Assembly (NCBI GenBank): GCA_022447555.1
Contig: JAKVBF010000012.1
Span: 18,497 to 76,906 of the forward strand
Direction: 5' to 3'
Source of the DNA: Mariniblastus sp.
Lineage (GTDB): Bacteria; Planctomycetota; Planctomycetia; Pirellulales; Pirellulaceae
Length of the DNA: 58,410 bases
Position numbers and translations under genes: made by a program. The notes beneath the pieces are model-generated. The model was not told the origin of the DNA. It made no database searches and worked only from the letters and a program-made list of their open reading frames with translations. Of this stretch, positions 940 through 14,905 are shown piece by piece (positions within the stretch are counted from its first letter, which is position 1; every line of letters begins with the position of its first letter).

Positions 940-3900
940 ATGACGGATCGAAAATATTCAAATGCCGCCCCGCGTTGGGCGTTTTGGGTGGACGTAGGGG
1001 GGACCTTTACGGATTGCCTAGCGGAATCGCCAGATGGAAATCAACGCTTTATCAAAGTTCTCAGCTCGGCGACGATGAAAGGTGTGTTGGCTGAACCGAC
1101 CGGACGTGATCGATTTCAAGACGCAGATCATCAAAATCGACGTGTCGGTTTCTGGAATGGTGTCGGAGTTCGTTTTTTAGACGCGTCGGGCGAGCTGGTC
1201 GGCCAGTCAGAGATCACTCATTTTGAGGAGGGCGAATTCACTTATGACGCGCGCAATGTCCCGTCGCTCGCAGCCGGAACCAGGTACGAATTACGGCCTA
1301 AGATCAGTGCTCCCCTGCTGGCGATGCATTGCTTGATGAATCTGCCGTTGAACGCTGCCTTGCCCGACTGCGATTTACATCTTGGCACGACTCGCGGGAC
1401 CAACGCGCTGCTCACCCGAAGTGGGGCGCGAACCGCCCTGATTACGACCTGCGGATTTAAAGACCTTTTGGTGATTGGCGATCAGGCTCGGCCTCGACTG
1501 TTCGAGCTAGATATTGACAAGCCTGAACCTCTGTTTGAGAAAGTGATTGAAATAGACGAACGGGTGCTGGCAGACGGCACTGTGGAGCGCGCACCGGATC
1601 GAGTTGCGGTGAAACGACAATTGCAAACACTTCGTGAATCGGGCATTGAATCAGTAGCGATCTGTTTTATGCACAGCTATCGTTGGCCCGCGCATGAAAA
1701 TCAGGTGGCTCAAATTGCAGCCGATTTGGGTTTTGAATCGGTTCGAGTGAGCAGCGAAGTGGCGCCGTCGATCAAGATCGTTCCCAGGGCTGAAACGAGT
1801 GTTTTGGACGCTTACCTAAATCCGGTGATTGTCAGCTATCTGGAAGAGATTCGAAGTCGCCTGACACACCAGAGCCGGCTGCGGCTGATGACTTCTGCGG
1901 GTGGACTGGTTTCACCTAAGCGGTTTTCAGGGAAAGACAGTGTTTTGTCCGGCCCAGCTGGAGGGGTGGTCGGGGCTGCTCGAATCGCAGGACAGTTGGG
2001 ATACAGCAGGGCAATCGGTTTTGATATGGGCGGCACGAGCACGGATGTGTCTCGGTATGACGGTTGTTTTGAACATGAGTACCAGTCTCGCAAAGCGGGC
2101 GTACGGATTGTGTCTCCGATGTTGGGGGTCGAAACGGTGGCTGCTGGTGGCGGTTCTATTTGTTGGTTTGATGGCAAGCGGATGCAGGTGGGGCCGGCAA
2201 GTGCTGGGGCTGACCCCGGCCCAGCTTGTTACGGCGGTGGCGGCCCGTTGACGATCACCGATATCAACCTATATCTAAAAAGAATCGCGCATTTTGATTT
2301 TCCGCTTCCGCTTGATTTCGCCGCTGTGCAAGTGCGGTTAGAAGAAATCCGTGGCAAGGTGGTCGGTGCAGGTTTTAAACTCACCTTGCAGGAGTTGGCC
2401 GAAGGCTTTTTGGATATCGCCAATAATAATATGGCCTCGGCGATTCGCAGTATTTCGGTTTCGAAAGGTTACGACCCATCCGACTATCTGCTGGTTTCTT
2501 TTGGCGGCGCGGGTTCTCAACATTGCTGCGCGGTGGCCGATAAATTAAATATCCATCGCATTTTGGATCACCCCCAGTCGAGTGTGCTTAGTGCGGTGGG
2601 GATTCAACTAGCTGACCAAACGGCCTTTGCCAGTGAATCGGTTCTGAAGCCGCTAAGAAAGATTAACGTATTGCCGTTTGGGAATCTACGAGAATTGGTG
2701 ATTCAAAAGCTGGTTGGTGATGGCAATCCCCGAGATTCAATCGTTTGTAAAAACCAACTTGATTTACGCTATCGAGGAACAGACCCCTGCCTGACGATCG
2801 ATCAGCCGGAAGACGGAGATTTTCTAGCATGCTTTGAGTTGGCCCATCAGCGATTGTATGGCTACCTCCGGGATGAATCCGTGGAAATCGTAACCGCTCG
2901 AGTCGAAGGGGTGACCCTTGGTGAGCGTCCCGCGGAAGTGTCCCCCCTGCCTCGAAGGCGAGCTCTCGAACCTGCCCCTGGATCCGAAAGAGTGATCCCC
3001 TTTAGCGATATTTCTCCCGGCGATTTGATTGAGGGGCCAGTCATGATCGTGGATCAATTTAAAACCACGCTTATCGATCCGGGTTGGTGTGCAGTTGCAC
3101 AAGCCAACGGAAGTTTGCTTCTCGAGCGGACCGAGGTGGCTGCGCCTCGGACGCAGCCGATAGTGCGGGCTTCAGAGATGCCAGTGAACCCCATTCAACT
3201 CGAGATTTTCAGCAGTCATTTTGCAGCGATTGCAAAACAGATGGGAATTGTGCTGCAGAAGACATCGACGAGTGTCAATGTGAAAGAGCGACTGGATTTC
3301 AGTTGCGCCGTGTTCACTCGGCAAGGTGATTTGGTCGTTAATGCCCCCCATATTCCAGTCCACCTAGGGGCCATGAGTGAAACGGTCCGATCCATTATCA
3401 GGATGAACCCCGAAGTGAAATCCGGCGATGTGTTTTTAACCAACGATCCTTACGCAGGGGGTTCACATCTTCCGGATGTAACGACGGTGACCCCCGTCTT
3501 TGAGCCGTCTAATAAGGAACTGGTTTTTTGGGTAGCCAGTCGATCGCATCATGCCGAAATCGGCGGGAAAGCACCGGGCTCCATGCCCGCCGACGCCACT
3601 CGCCTAGGCGAAGAAGGCGTTCTAATTCAAAATTTCAAATTAATCGATGCGGGACAAGAGCGGTTTGATATCCTGCGGCAGCACCTTACACGATCGCCCT
3701 ACCCGTCTCGTTCCCCAGAAGAAAACATCGGTGACATCACAGCTCAAGTTGCCGCCAATCGTCGAGGACAAACAGACTTGTTGGATCTGGTTGATCGATA
3801 CTCTCGGGTTCAAGTCGAGCGATACATGCGCTTCATGCAGGAGGCCGCGGCCGTCAAGGTTCAGACAGCCTTGGCTTCACAGTTCACGCCAGGAACCTAT

Positions 3901-4803
3901 CAATTTCAGGATGCGATGGATAGCGGGGCTAAAATCCAAGTAACGATACAATGGAACGCTGGGCGCTTAGCTATCGATTTTGAAGGGACCGATCCAGTCT
4001 GCTGTGATAACTTGAATGCCAATCGAGCGATCGTTACGGCCGCTGTAATGTACGTAATGCGATGCCTGATTGACGAAGATATCCCGCTAAACGAAGGTGT
4101 TATGAGCCCAGTGGATCTTCGTTTGCCGGTCTGTTTTTTAAATCCTAGACCCGCCGCAGACCCCTCTCAAAGTCCAGCGGTCGTAGGCGGTAATGTGGAG
4201 ACCTCCCAACGTATCGTGGACGTCTTGCTGGGGGCGTTGGGGATCGCTGCGGCGAGTCAGGGAACTATGAATAACTGGCTGATGGGTGATGATTCGTTTG
4301 GTTATTATGAAACCGTGTGTGGCGGCTCTGGAGCCACCGGTCAAGCGGATGGAGCTGATGGCGTGCACACGCACATGACGAACACCCGATTGACGGACCC
4401 TGAGGTTTTGGAATCACGCTATCCCGCCGTTCTAAGAGATTTTTCAATCCGCCTCAACAGTGGGGGCAACGGGCGTTATCGGGGCGGCTGCGGTATCCGT
4501 CGAGAGATAGAATTTAGGCAACCGCTCACACTGTCACTCTTAACCAGCCGCCGGAATACCAGGCCGTTCGGTCTTTGCGGCGGGTCAGCGGGCGAACCAG
4601 GCGTCAACCAATTCTCATCTACTGCCGGCGAACGCCGTGATTTGCCCAGTCAGTGTGAGGTCAAAGTCACGAAGGGTGATCGTCTGGTCTTGTTAACCCC
4701 GGGCGGGGGGGGGTTTGGCGATGCGAAATCCGGAGTCAAGCATCCTGACCATTCTGATCGTCCTGAAAACGACCAATTTCCGGGCGAATCGCTTGAGCGT
4801 TAA
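940..4803 (+). CDS. Fused hydantoinase A/B, 5-oxoprolinase type (ATP-dependent)
   Basis: The protein has 1287 residues, matching eukaryotic-type 5-oxoprolinases in which HyuA and HyuB are fused. The N-terminal hydantoinase A/oxoprolinase half begins with the phosphate-binding VDVGGTFTD (about residue 17). It continues with LGTTRGTNALL (about 148) and the second nucleotide motif FDMGGTSTD (about 361). The hydantoinase B half starts near residue 750 and holds TNDPYAGGSHLPDV (about 834). Family members hydrolyse 5-oxoproline to glutamate, or open hydantoin-like rings, at the cost of ATP in the cytoplasm. Substrate choice between oxoproline, hydantoin and related lactams cannot be read from the sequence. 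The last 68 bases overlap the 3' end of the convergent glucuronokinase-like gene. Confidence 0.9.
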   Translation: MTDRKYSNAAPRWAFWVDVGGTFTDCLAESPDGNQRFIKVLSSATMKGVLAEPTGRDRFQDADHQNRRVGFWNGVGVRFLDASGELVGQSEITHFEEGEFTYDARNVPSLAAGTRYELRPKISAPLLAMHCLMNLPLNAALPDCDLHLGTTRGTNALLTRSGARTALITTCGFKDLLVIGDQARPRLFELDIDKPEPLFEKVIEIDERVLADGTVERAPDRVAVKRQLQTLRESGIESVAICFMHSYRWPAHENQVAQIAADLGFESVRVSSEVAPSIKIVPRAETSVLDAYLNPVIVSYLEEIRSRLTHQSRLRLMTSAGGLVSPKRFSGKDSVLSGPAGGVVGAARIAGQLGYSRAIGFDMGGTSTDVSRYDGCFEHEYQSRKAGVRIVSPMLGVETVAAGGGSICWFDGKRMQVGPASAGADPGPACYGGGGPLTITDINLYLKRIAHFDFPLPLDFAAVQVRLEEIRGKVVGAGFKLTLQELAEGFLDIANNNMASAIRSISVSKGYDPSDYLLVSFGGAGSQHCCAVADKLNIHRILDHPQSSVLSAVGIQLADQTAFASESVLKPLRKINVLPFGNLRELVIQKLVGDGNPRDSIVCKNQLDLRYRGTDPCLTIDQPEDGDFLACFELAHQRLYGYLRDESVEIVTARVEGVTLGERPAEVSPLPRRRALEPAPGSERVIPFSDISPGDLIEGPVMIVDQFKTTLIDPGWCAVAQANGSLLLERTEVAAPRTQPIVRASEMPVNPIQLEIFSSHFAAIAKQMGIVLQKTSTSVNVKERLDFSCAVFTRQGDLVVNAPHIPVHLGAMSETVRSIIRMNPEVKSGDVFLTNDPYAGGSHLPDVTTVTPVFEPSNKELVFWVASRSHHAEIGGKAPGSMPADATRLGEEGVLIQNFKLIDAGQERFDILRQHLTRSPYPSRSPEENIGDITAQVAANRRGQTDLLDLVDRYSRVQVERYMRFMQEAAAVKVQTALASQFTPGTYQFQDAMDSGAKIQVTIQWNAGRLAIDFEGTDPVCCDNLNANRAIVTAAVMYVMRCLIDEDIPLNEGVMSPVDLRLPVCFLNPRPAADPSQSPAVVGGNVETSQRIVDVLLGALGIAAASQGTMNNWLMGDDSFGYYETVCGGSGATGQADGADGVHTHMTNTRLTDPEVLESRYPAVLRDFSIRLNSGGNGRYRGGCGIRREIEFRQPLTLSLLTSRRNTRPFGLCGGSAGEPGVNQFSSTAGERRDLPSQCEVKVTKGDRLVLLTPGGGGFGDAKSGVKHPDHSDRPENDQFPGESLER

Positions 4804-5770
4804 TGTCTCTCAATCGCTTTTGCAACAGAGGCCACATCTCAGGATCGGGATAAGTGCCAATGATCGCGCCGCCGCTACCGCAATACTTGGCACTGGCGCC
4901 GACTGATCGAGCCGTCTCCACCAGGTGTACATGGGCGGGATGAAGTTGGCAGATTTGATGACGTAAGTCAAAGTTCTCATTGATCAATGAAGCCAGTCGC
5001 AGGTGGTCTTGTTCCAATAGCGCGGCGCGTCCTTGTTTGGCGTACTCTGCGAACTGTTGCATGGCGTCGACGACGGTCGGATCACCTGCGTCGAACCGCT
5101 GTTTCAAGTCGTTGTGCAGGACCTCCGTAGGCTCACCCGCATCGTCGGCGAAAGCAATGTACAGACTTGGCAATAAGGCAGGGTCGAGCCGTTCGTAGAG
5201 CCCATACGGCAAGCCGCGGTCCACCTGCATTTGTGAATGCCCAAAATCCATATAAACCAAGCCCTCGTAGGCTTGGATGACGCGATCCTGCAGGCCCGCA
5301 GGAATTCCCAAGTCAGCTTCGACGCTCAGGGTGAGCGAGGCCAATGAATGGGGTGCCAGCGTCAGGCCGTACCAGTCAGCCAGTCCCCGTAGCGCAGCTG
5401 TGATGATGGCGCTAGAGCCTGCCAAACCGACCTGGCGAGGGATGTTGCTGTGGTATTGAATGCGAAAGTTATCAGCGGGGACACCGCCATCGGCAAAGTA
5501 AAATTCACAAAATCGCTTCATGGTCGCTTTTAATAAACGAACCCCACCGTAGTAGCCGTCTTTTTGAACGCGTCTCGTCAATTGTTCGAGGGAATCAAAT
5601 TCTAGACCCTCATGAGGACTGGGTTGGATGGTGATTTTCTTGGCCGAAAAAAGATCCACTTGAGCCGAAAAGTCACCTACGATTACGGAGATAGTTTTAC
5701 CGTGGTAACCGTCCGAAGGGTTTCCTAGTAAACCAGCTCGGGCATACGCTCGACGACTAACGTGTTTCAC
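4736..5770 (-). CDS. GHMP kinase, glucuronokinase-like
   Basis: The protein has 344 residues and a GTG start that overlaps the end of the galU-like gene by 14 bases, so the two are translationally coupled. The GHMP ATP-binding loop GLAGSS lies at residues 115-120, after the family NIPRQ segment, and a C-terminal CGSGGA motif is present. The N-terminus (AYARAGLLGNPSDGYHGKTIS), GYYGGVRLL (72-80) and GLQDR (159-163) match closely what I recall of plant glucuronokinases, which phosphorylate D-glucuronate at C1. Family membership is clear and the plant-like substrate is inferred from these segments. With the GalU neighbour it would make UDP-glucuronate by salvage. Alternatives are a heptose kinase or another C1 sugar kinase. 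The 3' end overlaps the convergent oxoprolinase gene. Confidence 0.82.
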   Translation of the reverse strand: MKHVSRRAYARAGLLGNPSDGYHGKTISVIVGDFSAQVDLFSAKKITIQPSPHEGLEFDSLEQLTRRVQKDGYYGGVRLLKATMKRFCEFYFADGGVPADNFRIQYHSNIPRQVGLAGSSAIITAALRGLADWYGLTLAPHSLASLTLSVEADLGIPAGLQDRVIQAYEGLVYMDFGHSQMQVDRGLPYGLYERLDPALLPSLYIAFADDAGEPTEVLHNDLKQRFDAGDPTVVDAMQQFAEYAKQGRAALLEQDHLRLASLINENFDLRHQICQLHPAHVHLVETARSVGASAKYCGSGGAIIGTYPDPEMWPLLQKRLRDINAQAIRPEIGRFQDDQNGQDA

Positions 5771-6656
5771 GTGCGTTCCCTTTTCGCTCGACAGCTTGAA
5801 TTACGCGCTCCCGCAACTGGGGATCGGCCAAAGCAAAATGGATGAAAGATTCCGTGTAGGAATGAAGGTTGCCGACGTCAAACCGACGCTCCCCGGGGTT
5901 CAATTGAATCCCGATTGCTTTTGCCCCAGATTGTATCATTTGCCGAATGGCGTCGGTCAACTGTATTTCATTTCCTTTGCCGCGCGGTGTTTCACGCAAC
6001 GCTTGAAATATTTCAGCGCTGAAGACATACCTGGCCGCGACAGCCAGATGACTTGGCGCTTCTTCAATGCTTGGTTTCTCGATCAGGTCGTCCAGTTCAA
6101 AAATAGGCCCTTGGGTTCTAGGTTTTGCGATTCCAAAACGGCTTACCTTCTCGGGCGGGACCTGCTCAAACGTGATCACAATATCTGCTTGATGTTTCTC
6201 AACGGCCTCAATCATACGTTGGATAACATTGTTGTCGTCGGTCGTTTCAAGAACGCAGTCACCTAGTGATACCACCACCGGCTGTTCACCGACCATAGGT
6301 TCCGCCACAGCAACGGCGTGCCCCAAACCATGCTGCTCCGTTTGAATCACCGTTTCCAATTGCATAGCTGCAGCGGGGGAATGGGACCATAGCTGTTGAG
6401 CCAACTCAGGCTTACCGCTTGCCAACAAACGCTGTTCGAGTTCGGGTGCGGGGTGAAAGCTTTCTGCAATCCGCGATTTTTCGGGAGAGGTGACCAGGAT
6501 GGTTCGACGGATGCCAGCGTCCCAAAGTTCTTCGATCACATAATGTAACGTCGGTTTGCCACCCAAAGGAAGCAGCTCTTTGGGAACGGCTCGAGTGATG
6601 GGCAGCAGGCGGGTGCCCAGTCCTGCCACGGGTACAATTGCCGTATCGATCGTCAT
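5757..6656 (-). CDS. galU: UTP-sugar-1-phosphate uridylyltransferase, GalU family
   Basis: The protein has 299 residues, normal for GalU. It opens with the nucleotidyltransferase signature VPVAGLGTRLLP followed by PKELLPL. GLGHAVAVAEP (about 129), the GDCVLE metal-binding region and a late GKGNEIQLTDAI follow in the usual order. The canonical reaction is UTP plus glucose-1-phosphate to UDP-glucose in the cytosol. Its 14-base overlap with the glucuronokinase-like gene suggests that glucuronate-1-phosphate may be its substrate here, the role UDP-sugar pyrophosphorylase plays in plants. That is inference from context. It lies at the 3' end of the polysaccharide locus, and the ATG start gives the usual short N-terminus. 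Confidence 0.88.
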   Translation of the reverse strand: MTIDTAIVPVAGLGTRLLPITRAVPKELLPLGGKPTLHYVIEELWDAGIRRTILVTSPEKSRIAESFHPAPELEQRLLASGKPELAQQLWSHSPAAAMQLETVIQTEQHGLGHAVAVAEPMVGEQPVVVSLGDCVLETTDDNNVIQRMIEAVEKHQADIVITFEQVPPEKVSRFGIAKPRTQGPIFELDDLIEKPSIEEAPSHLAVAARYVFSAEIFQALRETPRGKGNEIQLTDAIRQMIQSGAKAIGIQLNPGERRFDVGNLHSYTESFIHFALADPQLRERVIQAVERKGNARETR

Positions 6657-6757: not shown

Positions 6758-8332
6758 TTATTCGAGAATCGCGAGCCTGAGCTGCTCTAGCTGGGCCCTC
6801 ATGTGTTCGAATTGTTCCGGATTAGGTGGTTGAAAGTATTGCGCGAACATCGTCAGATAAGTGCGATTCGTAAGAAACATTTCGGATGCAGCAGGAGAAC
6901 CCCAGGTTGGAAAGTGCCCCAGTGAATCAGAAGTCAAACCTTGATGACCGCCTAGCTCTTGAATCACTAACAACCCTCTTTCACCACTCTCCTTTTCAAA
7001 CTCCACTGTCTTTTCGCCGGCACGCGAAGTGATTTTTGAAATCGTCCAATTTCGCTTCATTTGCTCCGCCGCGGGATGTGCCCATCGACCGTTCAGCTGC
7101 GAAGCCGAATAGAGGCACTGCACACCATCGAGATAGGTATACCAACGATGCTGGCGGGCTCCTTGATCACTGGTTGAGTTACGCTCGCGGAATTCATATC
7201 TCAATAATTCAGAAGCCTCTTTCAGAGCCAAGGTGTCAATATCAACGGCTGAAGAAAGCTGGACTGAGTCAAATTTTTCTATATTTAAGAAGCGAAGGAA
7301 GCCCAGGCCGCCCAAAAGAATGGTGGCCGCAACCGTTACGAGGACATAGTTGTTTGGTACGGTCGTTCGGCGGGTTCTTGAGCGCGTCGGCTTCCGTACC
7401 GAACGGGTCGCCAGCCAGCGATTCCATGATTCTCCAGTTAAATTCACTAGGTCGGAGGTGGATTCCAAACTCTCTTCGGTAACGGGACCGAGCCAGAAAG
7501 CCAGAAATTGATCGGTAGAAACGATCAGGCCGACGGTTAACACAGAAACCATCATGACGATGAAGGACTGGAGTTCAGGGGAAATATCGATCAGTACTAG
7601 CTGAAAGCAGGCGCCTAACATCACCAAATAAGTCGCCTGAGCAAAAACCGCCCAAAACCCAATGGCGGCTATTAAAAGTGACGAGTGAAACAAACGTCGA
7701 GAGTTTAGACCAATCAAGGTCAGCCCTACGGCTGCCAAGAATGGAACACCAAAAGCGGGTAGGGTAGAAAAATCAAGAGGTAGCAATCTCAATTCGTTGT
7801 TAAACCGAAAAGGGATTTCCTCATTGGCGATCAGGATACCGGGGACTCTTAAAATCTGCTCGGCACAATAATGGCTTGTCTGTCCGATCCAGTCATTGGT
7901 GATCGTGTCTAGCGAAAACAGTGGCAACAGTAATGCTGCCAAAGGCAAGGCTGCACCGGCCAGCAATCGCCGGTCTTCGGAATTGCGGATGGAAAAATCC
8001 AGCGACATGAGAAGCATCAGAAATGCTGCCGCTAGCAACCAGGGATCAGCAAGGATCACCAGCGAAGCGTTACAAAGAAATGCCAGTGAGAGACATATGA
8101 TGCCGGAGATGCAAAGGTTGCACCGGATGTTTGATTTTACGGATTGAATGAGGCGGACGGCTAAAACTAAGCCGCACCCAGCGATAATCCACCACAGAGT
8201 TTCATAACCCGCTCGTGTGCAAATCAACTGCCAGTAGACCGACGCGAAAAGTCCTTGTACAAGAACGGCGGCACCTAGCACTTTCAGTAGAGAACGATTT
8301 TCAGGCGACTTGATATTGGACGGGGCTGACAT
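6758..8332 (-). CDS. Exosortase-like membrane protein lacking catalytic residues (inactive paralogue)
   Basis: The protein has about 524 residues (ATG at 8332; a TTG one codon earlier is possible). About eight or nine hydrophobic segments fill residues 15-285, and a soluble domain fills about 330-524. It runs parallel to the upstream exosortase. The helix before the catalytic loop, a shared WAVF helix (228-231), an identical STDQ (273-276) and a C-terminal ESGERGLLV segment answering ETGEHGFLL all line up. The positions that should hold the catalytic Cys, Arg and His fall on a PLDFSTL stretch, on AQATY and on ISPELQ, so none is conserved. It therefore cannot be a working protease/transpeptidase of this class. 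It may be a partner or chaperone of the exosortase. The function is unproven. Confidence 0.7.
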   Translation of the reverse strand: MSAPSNIKSPENRSLLKVLGAAVLVQGLFASVYWQLICTRAGYETLWWIIAGCGLVLAVRLIQSVKSNIRCNLCISGIICLSLAFLCNASLVILADPWLLAAAFLMLLMSLDFSIRNSEDRRLLAGAALPLAALLLPLFSLDTITNDWIGQTSHYCAEQILRVPGILIANEEIPFRFNNELRLLPLDFSTLPAFGVPFLAAVGLTLIGLNSRRLFHSSLLIAAIGFWAVFAQATYLVMLGACFQLVLIDISPELQSFIVMMVSVLTVGLIVSTDQFLAFWLGPVTEESLESTSDLVNLTGESWNRWLATRSVRKPTRSRTRRTTVPNNYVLVTVAATILLGGLGFLRFLNIEKFDSVQLSSAVDIDTLALKEASELLRYEFRERNSTSDQGARQHRWYTYLDGVQCLYSASQLNGRWAHPAAEQMKRNWTISKITSRAGEKTVEFEKESGERGLLVIQELGGHQGLTSDSLGHFPTWGSPAASEMFLTNRTYLTMFAQYFQPPNPEQFEHMRAQLEQLRLAILE

Positions 8333-8394
8333 CAACGCGTTTCATTTGCAGGCAAAAGCAATGGGTTAATTACGTAGAACAATCCGATAAACTT

Positions 8395-10182
8395 CTAAAG
8401 GGAGGCGGCGTCGGTGGGGTTGTCGACTTTGGAGTCCGGCGGTGTGCCGATTCTTTTTTCCAGAAATTCTTCGCGTAGCAATTCTCTAGTTGTCAAATAG
8501 TGGTTCCGAATCTCATCCAGAGCTGCTGGATCAAATTCACCGTATTGAGATACAAACGCTTGTGACTGATAAGCCTCCCCCTGAAACAAACTCCCTCGGA
8601 TGCGATGCGACAGGCGATTTTGAGCACGGGTGACGAGCGCGTTCAAGGTGCCCCAGCTGCGCGGCGCCCAGATGGGTTCGCCGAACGCGTCAAACAGGCT
8701 AAATAAAAGGAAGCCGTGTTCACCTGTCTCTTTTTGGAATTTCGCTTCAATGTATGGCCATTCAACGGTTTCACCATTGATTTCAATGGGTCTATGAAGC
8801 AGCTTCCGGTTGGTTAGTTTCCAGCCCGTGTTGCGATAACAAGTGGTCAGTTCGTGCCAACCAGGAAAGGTTTGATCCATCGAGATGGTCGTTCGCAGTC
8901 GGCGGTTTGGCGTTTCATAAACCCAAGTGTCAGAGCGCAGCCCCAGATCGCTACCTCGGGCCCGATTTTGAGCACGATAGTTGATTTGAGTCCATTCCAA
9001 ATCGTCTTGGGTGTTTATGATTGAAGGCAGGTCGCCCTCCGAAAATGGCTCGGTCACGTCAGTGGAAAAAAACCGAACGCTCAATGTCGGACTATTGTAC
9101 GAGCGAATAACGTCTACAAACTGAAACAGGCCGGCAAACACAACCGCCGCAGCGGCCATCCAAATCGCGCGCATTCCCATTTTTGAAATCGGTCGACGAT
9201 TGTCTTTTTTCCGTTTTCGCCTTTCGTTTTCAGAACTTGGAACAATTAAGTTGCCCCATAGAGCTCCAAACATCCGGGAGAGCAGTGATTTCTTTTGTTC
9301 CACCGATATCCCAGTGCCAAATAGGAATAGCAAAACCTGATCGGTGCTTAGCAATAATAAAATCCCAAGCGTCAGAGTGGCATAACCTAGCAACTCGTGG
9401 GGGAAGCCGCTCGATAGATCCAAGTCCCACCAGCGATCGGCAACCGGAATCATGATGATTCGGATCGAATTCATGAAGACAGCCCAAACCACTGCCGCGG
9501 CGATCAATGCTAGGCTACGGAACCAAGGACGTCGTTCCCAGATGACGAATACCGTTGCGACAAATAATAAGGTGAAAAAAGATTGAACGCCGCTGCATGC
9601 GTTTTCAATGTTGTAGAGCTTGCTTCCGGGGATTTCGATGACCGTTCCGGACAAGTTATGGGTTAAGTGGAACATGTCTAAGATCGCGCTGGTGACCGAG
9701 GCACTGATACGTTGCAGCCAATTGATCAACTGGTAATCCCCTCCATTGGGAATGACCAGAGCAACGTACAACGGAACGGAGGCGATCGCCAGGCCACGGT
9801 CTGTTTCAGAATCGACGGTGCGAGCCAGCAGACTCGATGTGAGCAACATAACACTTAGCGCAGAAAACCAAGGGGTTAAGAACGCGTATCCGGCAAAACA
9901 GCAGGCGATTCCAAATAGAAATAACAGCACGCTCCAAGCGCTCTTGAAGTGCTTACGCGCTTTGTTTCTAGGCCAACGCGTGTAGGCGATCAGGCAGGTC
10001 GCCAAAACCGCAAACGGAGCAAATTGGTAGTGGGGTCGGCCCCATAAATCGCGAGCGTATAAAAAAAGCATTGGCATCTGGGCCAAGACGGTGACGGCGT
10101 AAGGCAACCAAATACGGCCAAGATATCCTTCAGGTACCTGGGTGGTGAAATTATCGTGCTTGGGAATGGATGCAGAAGACAT
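8395..10182 (-). CDS. Exosortase, large planctomycete type with C-terminal EpsI-like domain
   Basis: The protein has 595 residues. The exosortase core (about 25-290) is polytopic and carries all three catalytic residues: Cys196 in the ENACSG motif, Arg241 in MNSIR and His262 in PHELLGY. A C-terminal domain of about 230 residues resembles the exosortase-associated EpsI domain. Exosortases cleave C-terminal sorting signals (PEP-CTERM and related) at the inner membrane and usually accompany exopolysaccharide genes, as here. It probably corresponds to the class called exosortase U, a label I give from memory. No protein in this window ends in a recognisable sorting signal, so substrates must lie elsewhere. 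A 62-base gap separates it from the inactive paralogue downstream. Confidence 0.85.
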   Translation of the reverse strand: MSSASIPKHDNFTTQVPEGYLGRIWLPYAVTVLAQMPMLFLYARDLWGRPHYQFAPFAVLATCLIAYTRWPRNKARKHFKSAWSVLLFLFGIACCFAGYAFLTPWFSALSVMLLTSSLLARTVDSETDRGLAIASVPLYVALVIPNGGDYQLINWLQRISASVTSAILDMFHLTHNLSGTVIEIPGSKLYNIENACSGVQSFFTLLFVATVFVIWERRPWFRSLALIAAAVVWAVFMNSIRIIMIPVADRWWDLDLSSGFPHELLGYATLTLGILLLLSTDQVLLFLFGTGISVEQKKSLLSRMFGALWGNLIVPSSENERRKRKKDNRRPISKMGMRAIWMAAAAVVFAGLFQFVDVIRSYNSPTLSVRFFSTDVTEPFSEGDLPSIINTQDDLEWTQINYRAQNRARGSDLGLRSDTWVYETPNRRLRTTISMDQTFPGWHELTTCYRNTGWKLTNRKLLHRPIEINGETVEWPYIEAKFQKETGEHGFLLFSLFDAFGEPIWAPRSWGTLNALVTRAQNRLSHRIRGSLFQGEAYQSQAFVSQYGEFDPAALDEIRNHYLTTRELLREEFLEKRIGTPPDSKVDNPTDAASL

Positions 10183-10585: not shown

Positions 10586-11575
10586 TTAGATGCAGGGCGT
10601 TTCGATGCGAATCCTACCCGACCATGGTAGATTGTCTCGATACCATCGAACGCATTGCTCAAGCCCTTCATCAAGTCCTGTGTGTGGCTCCCACTCCAGT
10701 TGCTGCTTGGCTTTGGAAATATCAGCCCAAGTCGAATCAATATCGGCTTTGTGAAACGGCTGGTTCATGATCCGGGCTTTTTTACCTAATAGCGTTTCCA
10801 GCTTTTCAATAATCGTATTGAGACTAATCGGCTGATTACCACCTCCCAAATTGAACACCTCGTAACCAACTGGCTTGAGCGCCGCGATCGTGCCTCGAGC
10901 GATGTCGTCGACAAACGTGAAGTCTCTCGACTGAGTTCCGTCGCCAAACAGCTCGATTGGCTTCTCCTGATCGATCCATTTGATAAATCGAAAGATACAC
11001 ATGTCGGGGCGTCCCGCAGGTCCGTATACCGTGAAGTAGCGACATATTGAAACATCGATGCCGTATAGAAAGTGGTGGGAATAGGCCATCATTTCGGCGG
11101 ACTTTTTGGAAGCGGCATAAGACGAAATCGGAGTGTTAACCTCTAAATCTTCCGTGAACGGCATCGTTTGGCCGGCATACAGGGAAGAAGTTGATGCCAA
11201 CATATACTTACTGATTTCATGCTTACGGATCTCCTCTAGTAGATTTAGGCTCCCCAGAGCGTTGGTGGTCATGTAGACACGAGGGTTTTCCATGCTGTAA
11301 CGCACACCGGCTCGGGCTGCCAGGTTGATGACGGATTCGAACGAGAATGCTTCGAATAACTGCTGGATGGCATCACCGTTTTCAAGATCGATTTGACGGA
11401 AATCAAACCCCGAAAGTCTCTCGAGCTGGTGCAAACGATGCTGCTTGAGCGACACATCGTAATAGTTGTTCATGTTGTCGATGCCGACGACATGATGGCC
11501 TTGCTTAACGAGAAGTGCGGCGACTCGCGAGCCAATAAAACCTGCGCTACCGGTAACGAGGATTGATTTATCCAT
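10586..11575 (-). CDS. NAD-dependent UDP-glucuronate 4-epimerase
   Basis: The protein has 329 residues in the extended short-chain dehydrogenase fold. The NAD-binding loop VTGSAGFIGS is at residues 6-15. The NYYDVSLKQHRL segment (about 37-48) is typical of UDP-glucuronate 4-epimerases, with the Ser-Ser and Tyr-x-x-x-Lys (YAASK) catalytic residues further on. The predicted reaction is UDP-glucuronate to UDP-galacturonate in the cytoplasm. A glucuronokinase/GalU pair at the end of the same locus could supply UDP-glucuronate, and no UDP-glucose 6-dehydrogenase is seen. An intergenic hairpin region follows it. The epimerase fold is certain and the uronate specificity likely. Confidence 0.85.
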   Translation of the reverse strand: MDKSILVTGSAGFIGSRVAALLVKQGHHVVGIDNMNNYYDVSLKQHRLHQLERLSGFDFRQIDLENGDAIQQLFEAFSFESVINLAARAGVRYSMENPRVYMTTNALGSLNLLEEIRKHEISKYMLASTSSLYAGQTMPFTEDLEVNTPISSYAASKKSAEMMAYSHHFLYGIDVSICRYFTVYGPAGRPDMCIFRFIKWIDQEKPIELFGDGTQSRDFTFVDDIARGTIAALKPVGYEVFNLGGGNQPISLNTIIEKLETLLGKKARIMNQPFHKADIDSTWADISKAKQQLEWEPHTGLDEGLEQCVRWYRDNLPWSGRIRIETPCI

Positions 11576-12534: not shown

Positions 12535-13530
12535 CTATCCATATCGCTTTTTGAACCAAGCTAATGTGACATCCAGACCATCCTCAAACGAGGTGGTGGG
12601 TTGATAGTCGAGAAATTCTTTCGCTCGTGAGATGTCGGCCAGAGAGTGTTGAACATCACCCGCTCGAGGTTCACGGTACTCGGGATCGGTTGTTGCGCCT
12701 GTCAACCGCTTGAGTGTTTGAAACAGCTGATTGACTGTCGCGCGCTCGCCAAAGGCAACGTTATAAGCTTTGCTACTTGCTTCGGAATGGGTGGTGAGCA
12801 TTCCACGAATGTTTGCCTGAACCGCATTGGCAACAAACGTAAAGTCGCGAGATTGTTCACCATCCCCATTGATAAAAGGGGCTTGGTTTTTCAAAAGTGC
12901 GTCCATGAACAATGGTATCACGGCGGCGTAGGGACCGTCGGGTTTTTGTCGCGGGCCAAATACATTGAAATACCTCAAGCCAACGGTCTCCAGCCCGTAG
13001 CACTGTCCGAAAACGCTGGCGTATATTTCATTGGTGTACTTAGTGGCCGCATAGGGTGAAAGCAAGCTGCCGATTTGAGATTCGACTTTGGGCATCACAG
13101 GACTGTCGCCATAGACCGACGAACTACTCGCGTAAACAAACCGCTTTGCACCAGCATCCTTTGCGGCTGTGATCACGTTTAAAAAACCTGTGACATTGGC
13201 GGCGTGTGTCACCAGTGGTACTTCAATGGATCGAGGAACTGATCCCAGCGCAGCTTGGTGGGTGACATAGTCGATGTTTTCACAAGCCGCTTTGCAGTCC
13301 GACTCGTTTGTAATGTCAAGCTCCATAAAACGGACGTTTGGCAGATCCACGAAATTGGCAATGTTTTCAAATTTCCCTTCGCATAGGTTGTCCATGATGC
13401 GCACTTCTCCGGCACCATGGTGCACCAAATACTCAACGATGTTGGAGCCAATGAAACCGGCGCCGCCGGTGACTAGGAAAGAGTCATTTGAGATGTCCGT
13501 TTGGTGAAAATTTTGTTCGTAGAGAGACAT
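12535..13530 (-). CDS. wbpP: UDP-N-acetylglucosamine 4-epimerase, WbpP/TviC type
   Basis: The protein has 331 residues. The Rossmann loop VTGGAGFIGSN lies near residue 20, HQAALGSVPRSI near 93 (the SVPRSI segment is characteristic of WbpP-type epimerases), and SSSSVYG and SPYAATK supply the catalytic Ser and Tyr-x-x-x-Lys. These enzymes interconvert UDP-GlcNAc and UDP-GalNAc or their uronates. It follows the nucleotide-sugar dehydrogenase by 46 bases, the pairing known from WbpA/WbpP-like systems and the Vi antigen genes. The pair therefore predicts a HexNAc-uronate residue in the polymer. Family assignment is strong; exact substrate is inferred. Confidence 0.85.
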   Translation of the reverse strand: MSLYEQNFHQTDISNDSFLVTGGAGFIGSNIVEYLVHHGAGEVRIMDNLCEGKFENIANFVDLPNVRFMELDITNESDCKAACENIDYVTHQAALGSVPRSIEVPLVTHAANVTGFLNVITAAKDAGAKRFVYASSSSVYGDSPVMPKVESQIGSLLSPYAATKYTNEIYASVFGQCYGLETVGLRYFNVFGPRQKPDGPYAAVIPLFMDALLKNQAPFINGDGEQSRDFTFVANAVQANIRGMLTTHSEASSKAYNVAFGERATVNQLFQTLKRLTGATTDPEYREPRAGDVQHSLADISRAKEFLDYQPTTSFEDGLDVTLAWFKKRYG

Positions 13531-13576
13531 GGATTTCCGTAAATCGTTGGTTGGATTTTAAGGTGCGTCTGTTTCC

Positions 13577-14905
13577 TTAGGCTTTCCAGATTTTGGATCG
13601 TCCTTCTCGAACGTGCTGAGTTGCGTTACGCGTATCCACGATCAGCTGACTGTGTTGGACGAGGAATTCATAATCAAAAGCGCTATGGTCGGTAGCGATC
13701 AAAGCGCAATCGAGGCCTGCCAGGTACTCAGCCGTCATTTCACTGCTCTCCATTTCCGGCACGTCAAAACTTCGCATGCGGGGCAATCGTGGGATGTGAG
13801 GGTCGCAGTAAGTCAGGTTGGCTCCTCTCTCGGCCAATAACTCGATCAACTTAAACGAGGGGCTTTCTCGTGGGTCATCAACATTTTTTTTGTAGGCGAC
13901 GCCGAGAATTCCTATGCGGCTGTCCCGAACAGGTTTACCTAACGAGTTTAAAGCCTCAGCCACTTTGTGCACTACGTATAGCGGCATGCTGGTATTTATT
14001 TCACCCGCCAACTCAATGAATTTAGTCGGGATTTCATGTTTTCGGGCAACCCAGCTCAGGTAAAACGGGTCGATTGGAATGCAGTGGCCTCCTAGGCCAG
14101 GACCGGGATAAAACGCTTGAAAACCAAAGGGTTTTGTTTTGGCGGCATCGATGACTTCCCAGATATCAATTCCAATTTTATCAAACAAAACCTTTAGCTC
14201 GTTGGCCATGGCAATGTTCACACTACGGTAAGTGTTTTCCAGAATCTTGCAGGCCTCGGCCACCTCGCAGGAATTGACCGGCACGGTTTTGGTCACAGCC
14301 TTGGAATAGATGGCGTTGGCGATATCGCGACTGGACTCATCATAGCCTCCCACGACTTTGGGGATGGTAGCCGCCACAAATTTTTCATTGCCGGGATCTT
14401 CTCGCTCGGGGCTGTAGGCTACAAATAGATCGTTGCCGATCGTTAGGCCCGATTGCTCAAGAATGGGAACCATTACGTCGCGGGTTGTGCCGGGATAGGT
14501 GGTGCTTTCCAACACGATCAGCTGACCCGATCGCGCGACGCTGGCGATGGCTTGGGTCGTTTGGACCACGTATTTCAAATCGGGATCCCGACTTTCACTC
14601 AGCGGTGTTGGAACACAGATGAGAATAGCATCTGGTTCATTCAAACGCTTCATGTCAGAGGTGGCCTCGAGCTTGTTCGCGTCCACCCATTGCTTAACTA
14701 TATCGTTACTAATGTGGGCGATATAGCTTTGGCCAGCATTGAGGGCGTCGATTTTTTTGGGATCAACATCAAAACCGAGGCACTTAAATCCAGCCTTATA
14801 GAAGGCGTCAATCAGAGGAAGGCCAACGTAGCCCAGACCGACCACCCCTATCAAGGCGTTTCGGCTTTCTATTTTTTTATTGAGAATTTCAAAGGGCGAA
14901 GGCAT
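13577..14905 (-). CDS. wbpA: UDP-N-acetylhexosamine 6-dehydrogenase, WbpA type
   Basis: The protein has 442 residues with the three-domain layout of UDP-sugar dehydrogenases. The NAD loop GVVGLGYVGLP is at about residues 20-30, STTYPGTT near 154, SPEREDPGN near 186 and PKVVGG near 205. The catalytic cysteine sits in GLGGHCIPIDP (about 275). The SPEREDPGN and PKVVGG forms point to UDP-GlcNAc rather than UDP-glucose dehydrogenase. The reaction is the NAD-dependent double oxidation of UDP-GlcNAc (or UDP-GalNAc) to the uronate. It is the only nucleotide-sugar dehydrogenase in the locus. It starts 2 bases after the end of the preceding glycosyltransferase gene. Confidence 0.87.
   Translation of the reverse strand: MPSPFEILNKKIESRNALIGVVGLGYVGLPLIDAFYKAGFKCLGFDVDPKKIDALNAGQSYIAHISNDIVKQWVDANKLEATSDMKRLNEPDAILICVPTPLSESRDPDLKYVVQTTQAIASVARSGQLIVLESTTYPGTTRDVMVPILEQSGLTIGNDLFVAYSPEREDPGNEKFVAATIPKVVGGYDESSRDIANAIYSKAVTKTVPVNSCEVAEACKILENTYRSVNIAMANELKVLFDKIGIDIWEVIDAAKTKPFGFQAFYPGPGLGGHCIPIDPFYLSWVARKHEIPTKFIELAGEINTSMPLYVVHKVAEALNSLGKPVRDSRIGILGVAYKKNVDDPRESPSFKLIELLAERGANLTYCDPHIPRLPRMRSFDVPEMESSEMTAEYLAGLDCALIATDHSAFDYEFLVQHSQLIVDTRNATQHVREGRSKIWKA

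Follow-up and report, generated by a model that had tools for sequence, protein, structure and literature searches.

In bacteria, UDP-glucuronate is usually attributed to UDP-glucose dehydrogenase, and glucuronate itself is made by myo-inositol oxygenase (MIOX). By analogy of domains, the closest known system to the one considered here is GKUP of zebrafish and Xenopus, a putative uridylyltransferase fused to a glucuronokinase (Gangl et al. 2014, PMC3938481). In that study, the kinase of the zebrafish fusion is specific for glucuronate by measured activity (Km 31 uM), the transferase's relatives in bacteria and archaea are said to have that domain alone, and plants are described as using a broad-range UDP-sugar pyrophosphorylase. 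The window, by which we mean the whole 58,410-nt stretch of Mariniblastus sp. DNA analyzed (G000:C4:18497-76906 of a 4.19-Mb assembly), carries a GHMP kinase gene that overlaps a gene for a GalU-like nucleotidyltransferase. We read this pair as a predicted two-gene module for UDP-glucuronate salvage, with a probability of roughly 0.7.

The original prediction for this locus had proposed the same route and knew of no bacterial two-gene version. No bacterial glucuronokinase pair was described among the literature matches listed, from a search with little coverage of subscription journals; the nearest precedent, the fish fusion (PMC3938481), had been missed. Automatic microbial glucuronokinase labels do exist in two microbiome function lists (PMC8571626; PMC10687571, with KEGG K16190).

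Pairing of the two genes across genomes

Matches in other genomes mark the pair as a recurrent module, and the co-occurrence on which the original prediction had made itself depend proved to be wide. Among 60 related genomes, the window's own included, 16 carried both genes (transferase cut-off, E<1e-60) and 44 carried neither, except for one weak transferase match at 5e-16; this distribution, 16/16 versus 0/44, gives a Fisher p of 7e-15 with kinship ignored. The transferase lay at most 1.5 kb from the kinase in 15 of the 16 kinase genomes and on another contig in G044. In a phylum sample of 393 genomes, with cut-offs chosen after seeing the match lists, a strong transferase (E<=4.4e-48; 29 genomes) was present in 23 of the 25 strong-kinase genomes (23 at E<=2e-77 plus G038 and G331, where the genes matched in two pieces) versus 6 of the 368 others. 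The strong-kinase genomes lacking it were G223 and G343, and one of the six transferase genomes without a strong kinase, G067, has a weak adjacent kinase. With the limits of the searches themselves as cut-offs, a transferase match was found in 25 of 51 kinase genomes versus 11 of 342 others, most of the remaining kinases being divergent ones.

A scan of GTDB genomes returned at least 572 relatives among 585 matched stretches, from which 80 loci were kept, spanning nine named phyla (44 Planctomycetota, 10 Verrucomicrobiota, 8 Chloroflexota, 7 Acidobacteriota, and 11 others). Kinase and transferase adjoin in 52 of these 80 loci, with the transferase directly upstream in 43 and downstream in 9. 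When gene starts were placed by aligning each locus with the window protein, 24 of the 43 upstream-type loci showed overlapping genes and another 9 had a gap of 0-30 nt. Clustering of the 697 open reading frames of the 80 loci yielded no widely shared partner beyond kinase and transferase, and therefore the polysaccharide setting seen in the window is not general; frame clusters of 9 and 7 members look, in our judgment, like antisense frames. One scan of viral contigs found no relative. Two plasmid records match the kinase, one of them over 95% of its length. The pair is also present on a Rufibacter tibetensis plasmid (L189), where it is annotated as GHMP kinase and GalU.

Family placement of kinase and transferase

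The plant reference used here is a provisional Arabidopsis glucuronokinase (GlcAK) sequence, typed in rather than taken from a database and hence a lead only. The window kinase is 42% identical to it over 327 aa (BLASTP, E 1e-84). The provisional sequence is nearer to the kinases of L096 and L039 (47-48%), both fetched after it was typed, which argues that it was not modeled on the window. The main group of bacterial kinases comprises 94 rows: the window row plus 93 from loci, of which 91 are distinct. L013, L064, and L072, whose aligned translations contain stops, were dropped. Of the relatives that carry a name, the nearest is a Mariniblastus metagenome-assembled genome (L025), with 74% identity in the kinase. 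Identity to the provisional plant protein is 39-49% in the main group (mean, 43.8%), 30-37% in eight divergent homologues, and 21-26% in three chains of the heptose kinase HddA. A profile of the 91 kinases gave the provisional plant protein 359.7 bits and the divergent rows 195-247, versus 52-78 for the heptose kinases and 13 for the genome's own galactokinase-like protein. The resemblance to plant glucuronokinase that had been proposed for this kinase is thereby supported in sequence, as is its separation from the heptose and galactose kinase groups. The kinase reaches none of the NCBIfam cut-offs listed, including those of the HddA (NF049969, 41.9 bits versus 600), galactokinase (NF003006, 20.3 versus 443), and mevalonate kinase (TIGR00549, 49.0 versus 163.05) models.

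The kinase has the GHMP kinase domain and fold expected of a glucuronokinase (EC 2.7.1.43) and, measured against the provisional plant reference, resembles GlcAK more closely than it does other GHMP kinases. R11, N17-P18-S19-D20, Y22, R163, Q166, N266, R270, R288, and S299 are invariant in the main group, the provisional plant sequence, and all eight divergent homologues, whereas HddA differs at R163, Q166, N266, R270, R288, and S299 and its chains stop short of the N-terminal motif. R163 and R270 are candidates for holding the carboxylate of the substrate. The predicted structure is a GHMP sugar-kinase fold (pLDDT 90.3) to which galactokinases, a heptokinase, and Lin0012 are tied as matches, and no structure named glucuronokinase is among the fold matches listed; as modeled, the fold does not choose among sugars.

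Three kinase trees were built from the 109 available rows. The first (57 rows) was spoiled by long outgroup branches. In the second (45 rows, own-genome GHMP kinases excluded), the main group and the provisional plant row form a clade at 98/100, and the heptose kinases make up a group of their own at 100/100. In the third (42 rows, own-genome GHMP kinases and HddA excluded), the plant row falls within the main group with weak support (71/12) and the divergent group stands apart at 100/100; a constraint joining the plant row with the divergent group was tolerated (p 0.347). In these alignments, the trees agree on the groups and differ on deep branching order.

For the transferase, the best model is galU (TIGR01099), at 241.9 bits and below the cut-off of 326.8; by this measure the protein is GalU-like and not a called GalU. 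Its tree holds 55 transferase rows, after removal of L008, L031, L042, L073, and L167, together with seven comparison rows (four annotated as GalU or UTP-glucose-1-phosphate uridylyltransferase, two unannotated matches, and one RfbA as root). The window transferase does not group with classical GalU among these comparison rows; it belongs to a clade of 36 rows (100/100, branch 1.22), the other members being 28 upstream-type rows, six of the nine unlinked rows, and a single downstream-type row. A second clade (99/96), near a Bacillus GalU, takes in nine of the ten downstream-type rows along with the last three unlinked ones. The original prediction, which called this protein GalU-type, had missed that its lineage is separate from classical GalU.

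The divergent kinases have yet another partner, a short NTP-transferase that lies beside or is fused to the kinase in seven of the eight loci, two of these by weak matches alone; in the eighth, L170, a contig end adjoins the kinase. One fused frame in this group, L144, is kinase first. By sequence, then, the kinase family is paired with three kinds of transferase, two GalU-like lineages and the short NTP-transferase type, as would be predicted if a sugar-1-phosphate were the intermediate. Apparent transferase-kinase fusions in L035, L036, and L102 were discarded, since the second gene lies in another frame and the genes are separate.

Several side observations concern related architectures. 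A 650-aa fusion (L148:2372-4321) joins a GHMP kinase of another type, with a GEHSDW motif, to an NTP-transferase domain, and G335 and G350 contain open frames of similar length with weak transferase matches. In L134 (1463-5672), as in L135, L137, and L136 (the last from G034), a divergent NTP-transferase has as its neighbor a ~1115-1145-aa protein whose C terminus holds a UDPGP domain. G034, which lies outside the window's genus, has both a UDPGP-domain protein and the pair.

Locus anatomy and the linked epimerase-like gene

An epimerase-like gene in the same locus is a predicted consumer of UDP-glucuronate. The best PDB matches of its product are 5u4q (257 bits) and 6zl6 (203 bits), the latter of which we take to be the UDP-glucuronate 4-epimerase of B. 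cereus. Compared with that enzyme, the window protein keeps Thr126-Ser127-Ser128, Thr178, Arg185, Gln211, and Thr280 and has Ala in place of Pro85; the numbering of Thr126-Ser127-Ser128 and Thr178 is presumably that of the B. cereus enzyme. Roles of Arg185, Pro85, Gln211, and Thr280 in the B. cereus epimerase are described in PMC12338863. Epimerase-like genes lie near the pair in the window and in five other genomes. A homologue with 86% identity shares the cluster of the pair in L025, one with 73% identity (L140, from G027) ends 25 nt upstream of the transferase, and homologues with 40-41% identity directly follow kinase-transferase in L088 and L102 and come ~0.4 kb after it in L104. Two of the linked homologues were searched and had the same best PDB matches as the window protein. 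The neighboring genes, as predicted from sequence, support UDP-glucuronate as the compound involved.

The positions of the two reading frames and the 14-nt overlap were exactly as originally claimed, all on the minus strand (Table 1), and the kinase segments that had been quoted (GNPSD..KTIS, GYYGGVRLL, GLAGSSAI, and GLQDR) were all found. The pair is not a chance juxtaposition of frames, because the kinase matches PF00288 (1.7e-13) and the transferase matches PF00483 (4.4e-31). Most of the 14 relatives that were aligned begin at the same M, and the purine-rich stretch AAAAGGGAA is a possible Shine-Dalgarno sequence for the kinase gene. As also proposed at the outset, the pair sits at the end of a polysaccharide locus, closing a minus-strand polysaccharide/exosortase run.

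Table 1. Features of the window discussed in the text (window positions)
Feature	Position	Strand	Size and remarks
GHMP kinase, predicted glucuronokinase	4736..5770 (including stop)	minus	344 aa; GTG start
GalU-like nucleotidyltransferase, predicted glucuronate-1-phosphate uridylyltransferase	5757..6656	minus	299 aa; ATG start
Gene overlap	5757..5770	minus	14 nt; kinase GTG inside transferase 3' end; read directly
Possible Shine-Dalgarno stretch, purine-rich	5776..5784	minus	AAAAGGGAA; 5 nt 5' of kinase GTG
UDP-glucuronate 4-epimerase-like gene, predicted UDP-glucuronate consumer	10586..11575	minus	329 aa; PDB matches
Hydantoinase A/B-like gene	940..4803	plus	1287 aa
Tail-to-tail overlap of kinase and hydantoinase-like genes	4736..4803		68 nt
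Region between epimerase and pair	6758..10182	minus	two genes, the following two rows
Second large gene	6758..8335	minus	
Exosortase U	8395..10182	minus	
Nucleotide-sugar dehydrogenase beside TviC-like epimerase	12535..14905	minus	dehydrogenase nearest UDP-ManNAc dehydrogenases

Other neighbors are listed for completeness. The 3' end of the kinase gene overlaps that of the hydantoinase-like gene, and long opposite-strand frames occupy the same place in L025 and L140. The arrangement of exosortase U and the second large gene, between epimerase and pair, is conserved in L025. The dehydrogenase and the TviC-like epimerase suggest a UDP-GlcNAc-uronic acid branch within the same locus.

Proposed function, its alternatives, and known counterparts

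The anatomy of the genes, their conserved pairing, the family placement (against the provisional plant reference), the fold, and the linkage to the epimerase are shown by the data; from these we infer the substrate, product, direction, coupling, and destination of the pair as follows. The kinase would use ATP to phosphorylate the C1 hydroxyl of free D-glucuronate, and the coupled transferase would convert the resulting glucuronate-1-phosphate and UTP to UDP-glucuronate and pyrophosphate. UDP-glucuronate, or UDP-galacturonate made from it by the nearby 4-epimerase, could then feed the polysaccharide of the adjoining locus, and the gene overlap may keep both enzymes in step so that build-up of the sugar phosphate is avoided. 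In G081 (L169:1464-5201), a divergent kinase-transferase operon lies head-to-head with MIOX and near a Gfo/Idh/MocA oxidoreductase, making L169 a possible inositol-to-UDP-glucuronate locus in a bacterium. Within the window's genus (G000-G027, n=28), the glucuronate isomerase UxaC occurs in 22 genomes and the pair in four, with no genome carrying both; the two genomes with neither are incomplete. UxaC would compete for glucuronate, and its exclusion from pair-bearing genomes of the genus, like the MIOX locus, fits glucuronate as the substrate. Outside the genus, G038 and G052 carry both UxaC and the pair.

A number of results weigh against this proposal. UDP-glucuronate is probably made without the pair, judging from a TuaD-like dehydrogenase in the same genome (L126; 449 bits, below the model cut-off of 700 and above the general family cut-off). 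MIOX was not found in the window's genome, its association with the pair is weak in the 60 relatives (7/16 pair genomes versus 7/44, p 0.038), and the association is absent in the 393 phylum genomes (2/25 versus 29/368, p 1.0), so MIOX was dropped as a general partner. The exclusion between UxaC and the pair in the genus has a p of 7e-4 that ignores kinship. Next to the kinase, the transferase is missing from 22 of the 80 GTDB loci even though these have flanks of 1.1 kb, and in 6 it may be hidden by contig ends; 23 of these 28 genomes carry a transferase elsewhere, and the other 5 have none at 1e-15. Two unlinked kinases, in L028 and L045, have a glucosamine-isomerase/PIG-L protein as their neighbor, and those of L028 and L052 lie near sulfatases. 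No comparable epimerase was found nearby in further genomes (106 loci records, with flanks of unequal length), and Pro85, the position replaced by Ala in the window epimerase, is a specificity position according to PMC12338863. In the second kinase tree, a constraint placing HddA with the window kinase outscored the unconstrained search by 4.8 log units (p 0.656). Finally, the transferase half of the fish fusion is almost inactive, and its authors had no working homologue (PMC3938481).

The alternative that survives best, while still unlikely, is that the transferase serves the cell as its UDP-glucose pyrophosphorylase, with the kinase as a co-transcribed passenger. The transferase is the sole GalU-like protein in the genome and its best-scoring models are galU. 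A UDPGP-domain protein of ~1100-1200 aa is present in 22 genus genomes without the pair and in 0 of the 4 with it, a pattern given which the transferase could replace that protein, and the pair-bearing relative G036 lacks any UDPGP-family match; it is because of G036 and the genus pattern that this explanation is kept. Most UDPGP-family matches are, in addition, partial and may be UDP-N-acetylhexosamine enzymes. However, 44 of the 60 relatives do without the transferase while 59 of the 60 have some UDPGP-family gene, the transferase tracks the kinase even when unlinked, and its clade is separate from classical GalU. A passenger kinase would also leave the repeated pairing unexplained.

Somewhat less credible is a kinase acting on another sugar, such as heptose-7-phosphate or an unknown hexose, with the transferase making the matching UDP-sugar for an exopolysaccharide. 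The bacterial profile scores HddA far below the provisional plant enzyme (52-78 versus 360 bits), HddA lacks R163, R270, and other residues invariant in the plant and bacterial rows, and the partner here is GalU-like, as opposed to the guanylyltransferase that accompanies HddA. Least probable of the three is activation of D-galacturonate by a galacturonokinase and a UDP-galacturonate pyrophosphorylase, with the epimerase running from UDP-galacturonate to UDP-glucuronate: the linked epimerase type interconverts both UDP-uronates and so does not tell which uronate enters, and both acids may plausibly arise from breakdown of algal or plant polymers, but the bacterial kinases are 39-49% identical to the provisional GlcAK, plant galacturonokinase is very different in sequence according to PMC3938481, and MIOX, whose product is glucuronate, lies next to one divergent homologue.

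Under the preferred reading, UDP-glucuronate salvage, we judge the pair to be a widespread new bacterial form of a known glucuronate-to-UDP-glucuronate pathway. A wider proposal is more tentative, and slightly less likely than not: that on three or more occasions one glucuronokinase family has come together with a different nucleotidyltransferase (GalU-derived, second GalU-like, and short NTP-transferase, once beside MIOX) to give a widespread bacterial glucuronate-activation system, that the animal fusion and the plant inositol route have in this system their bacterial counterpart and possibly their source, and that its transferase is the working UDP-glucuronate pyrophosphorylase that could not be demonstrated in fish. 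If the salvage reading is true, the salvage route of plants and animals would be present as a two-gene operon in many bacterial phyla, and the annotation of a large family would be corrected, the one annotated plasmid example saying only "GHMP kinase" and "GalU." The bacterial transferases would be ready candidates for the question left by the nearly inactive fish transferase half and, if active, simple enzymes for making UDP-uronic acids.

Comparison with known systems places the pair among several partial relatives. Classical GalU belongs by sequence to the same protein family as the window transferase; the latter differs in forming a separate long-branch clade, in scoring below the galU cut-off, and in occurring only with the kinase in relatives. 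Bacterial FKP (fucokinase/GDP-fucose pyrophosphorylase) and HddA/HddC likewise couple a GHMP sugar kinase to a nucleotidyltransferase, and in the fold comparison FKP and the heptose kinases share the kinase fold of the window protein, but these systems act on other sugars through guanylyl partners, and HddA is without the GlcAK-type residues. The GlcAK/USP route of Arabidopsis, part of the myo-inositol oxygenation pathway, has a kinase of the same family with the same motifs (42% identity to the provisional sequence). It differs in that the plant UDP-sugar pyrophosphorylase is larger and of another family, whereas in the window the kinase shares an operon with a short GalU-like enzyme, and MIOX was not found in the window's genome. 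The fish GKUP, by its published description, is one fused eukaryotic protein, while the window has two overlapping bacterial genes in two frames, with the two domains in separate proteins; the two systems share the same kinds of domains, the same order from transferase to kinase, and the same proposed path from glucuronate to UDP-glucuronate.

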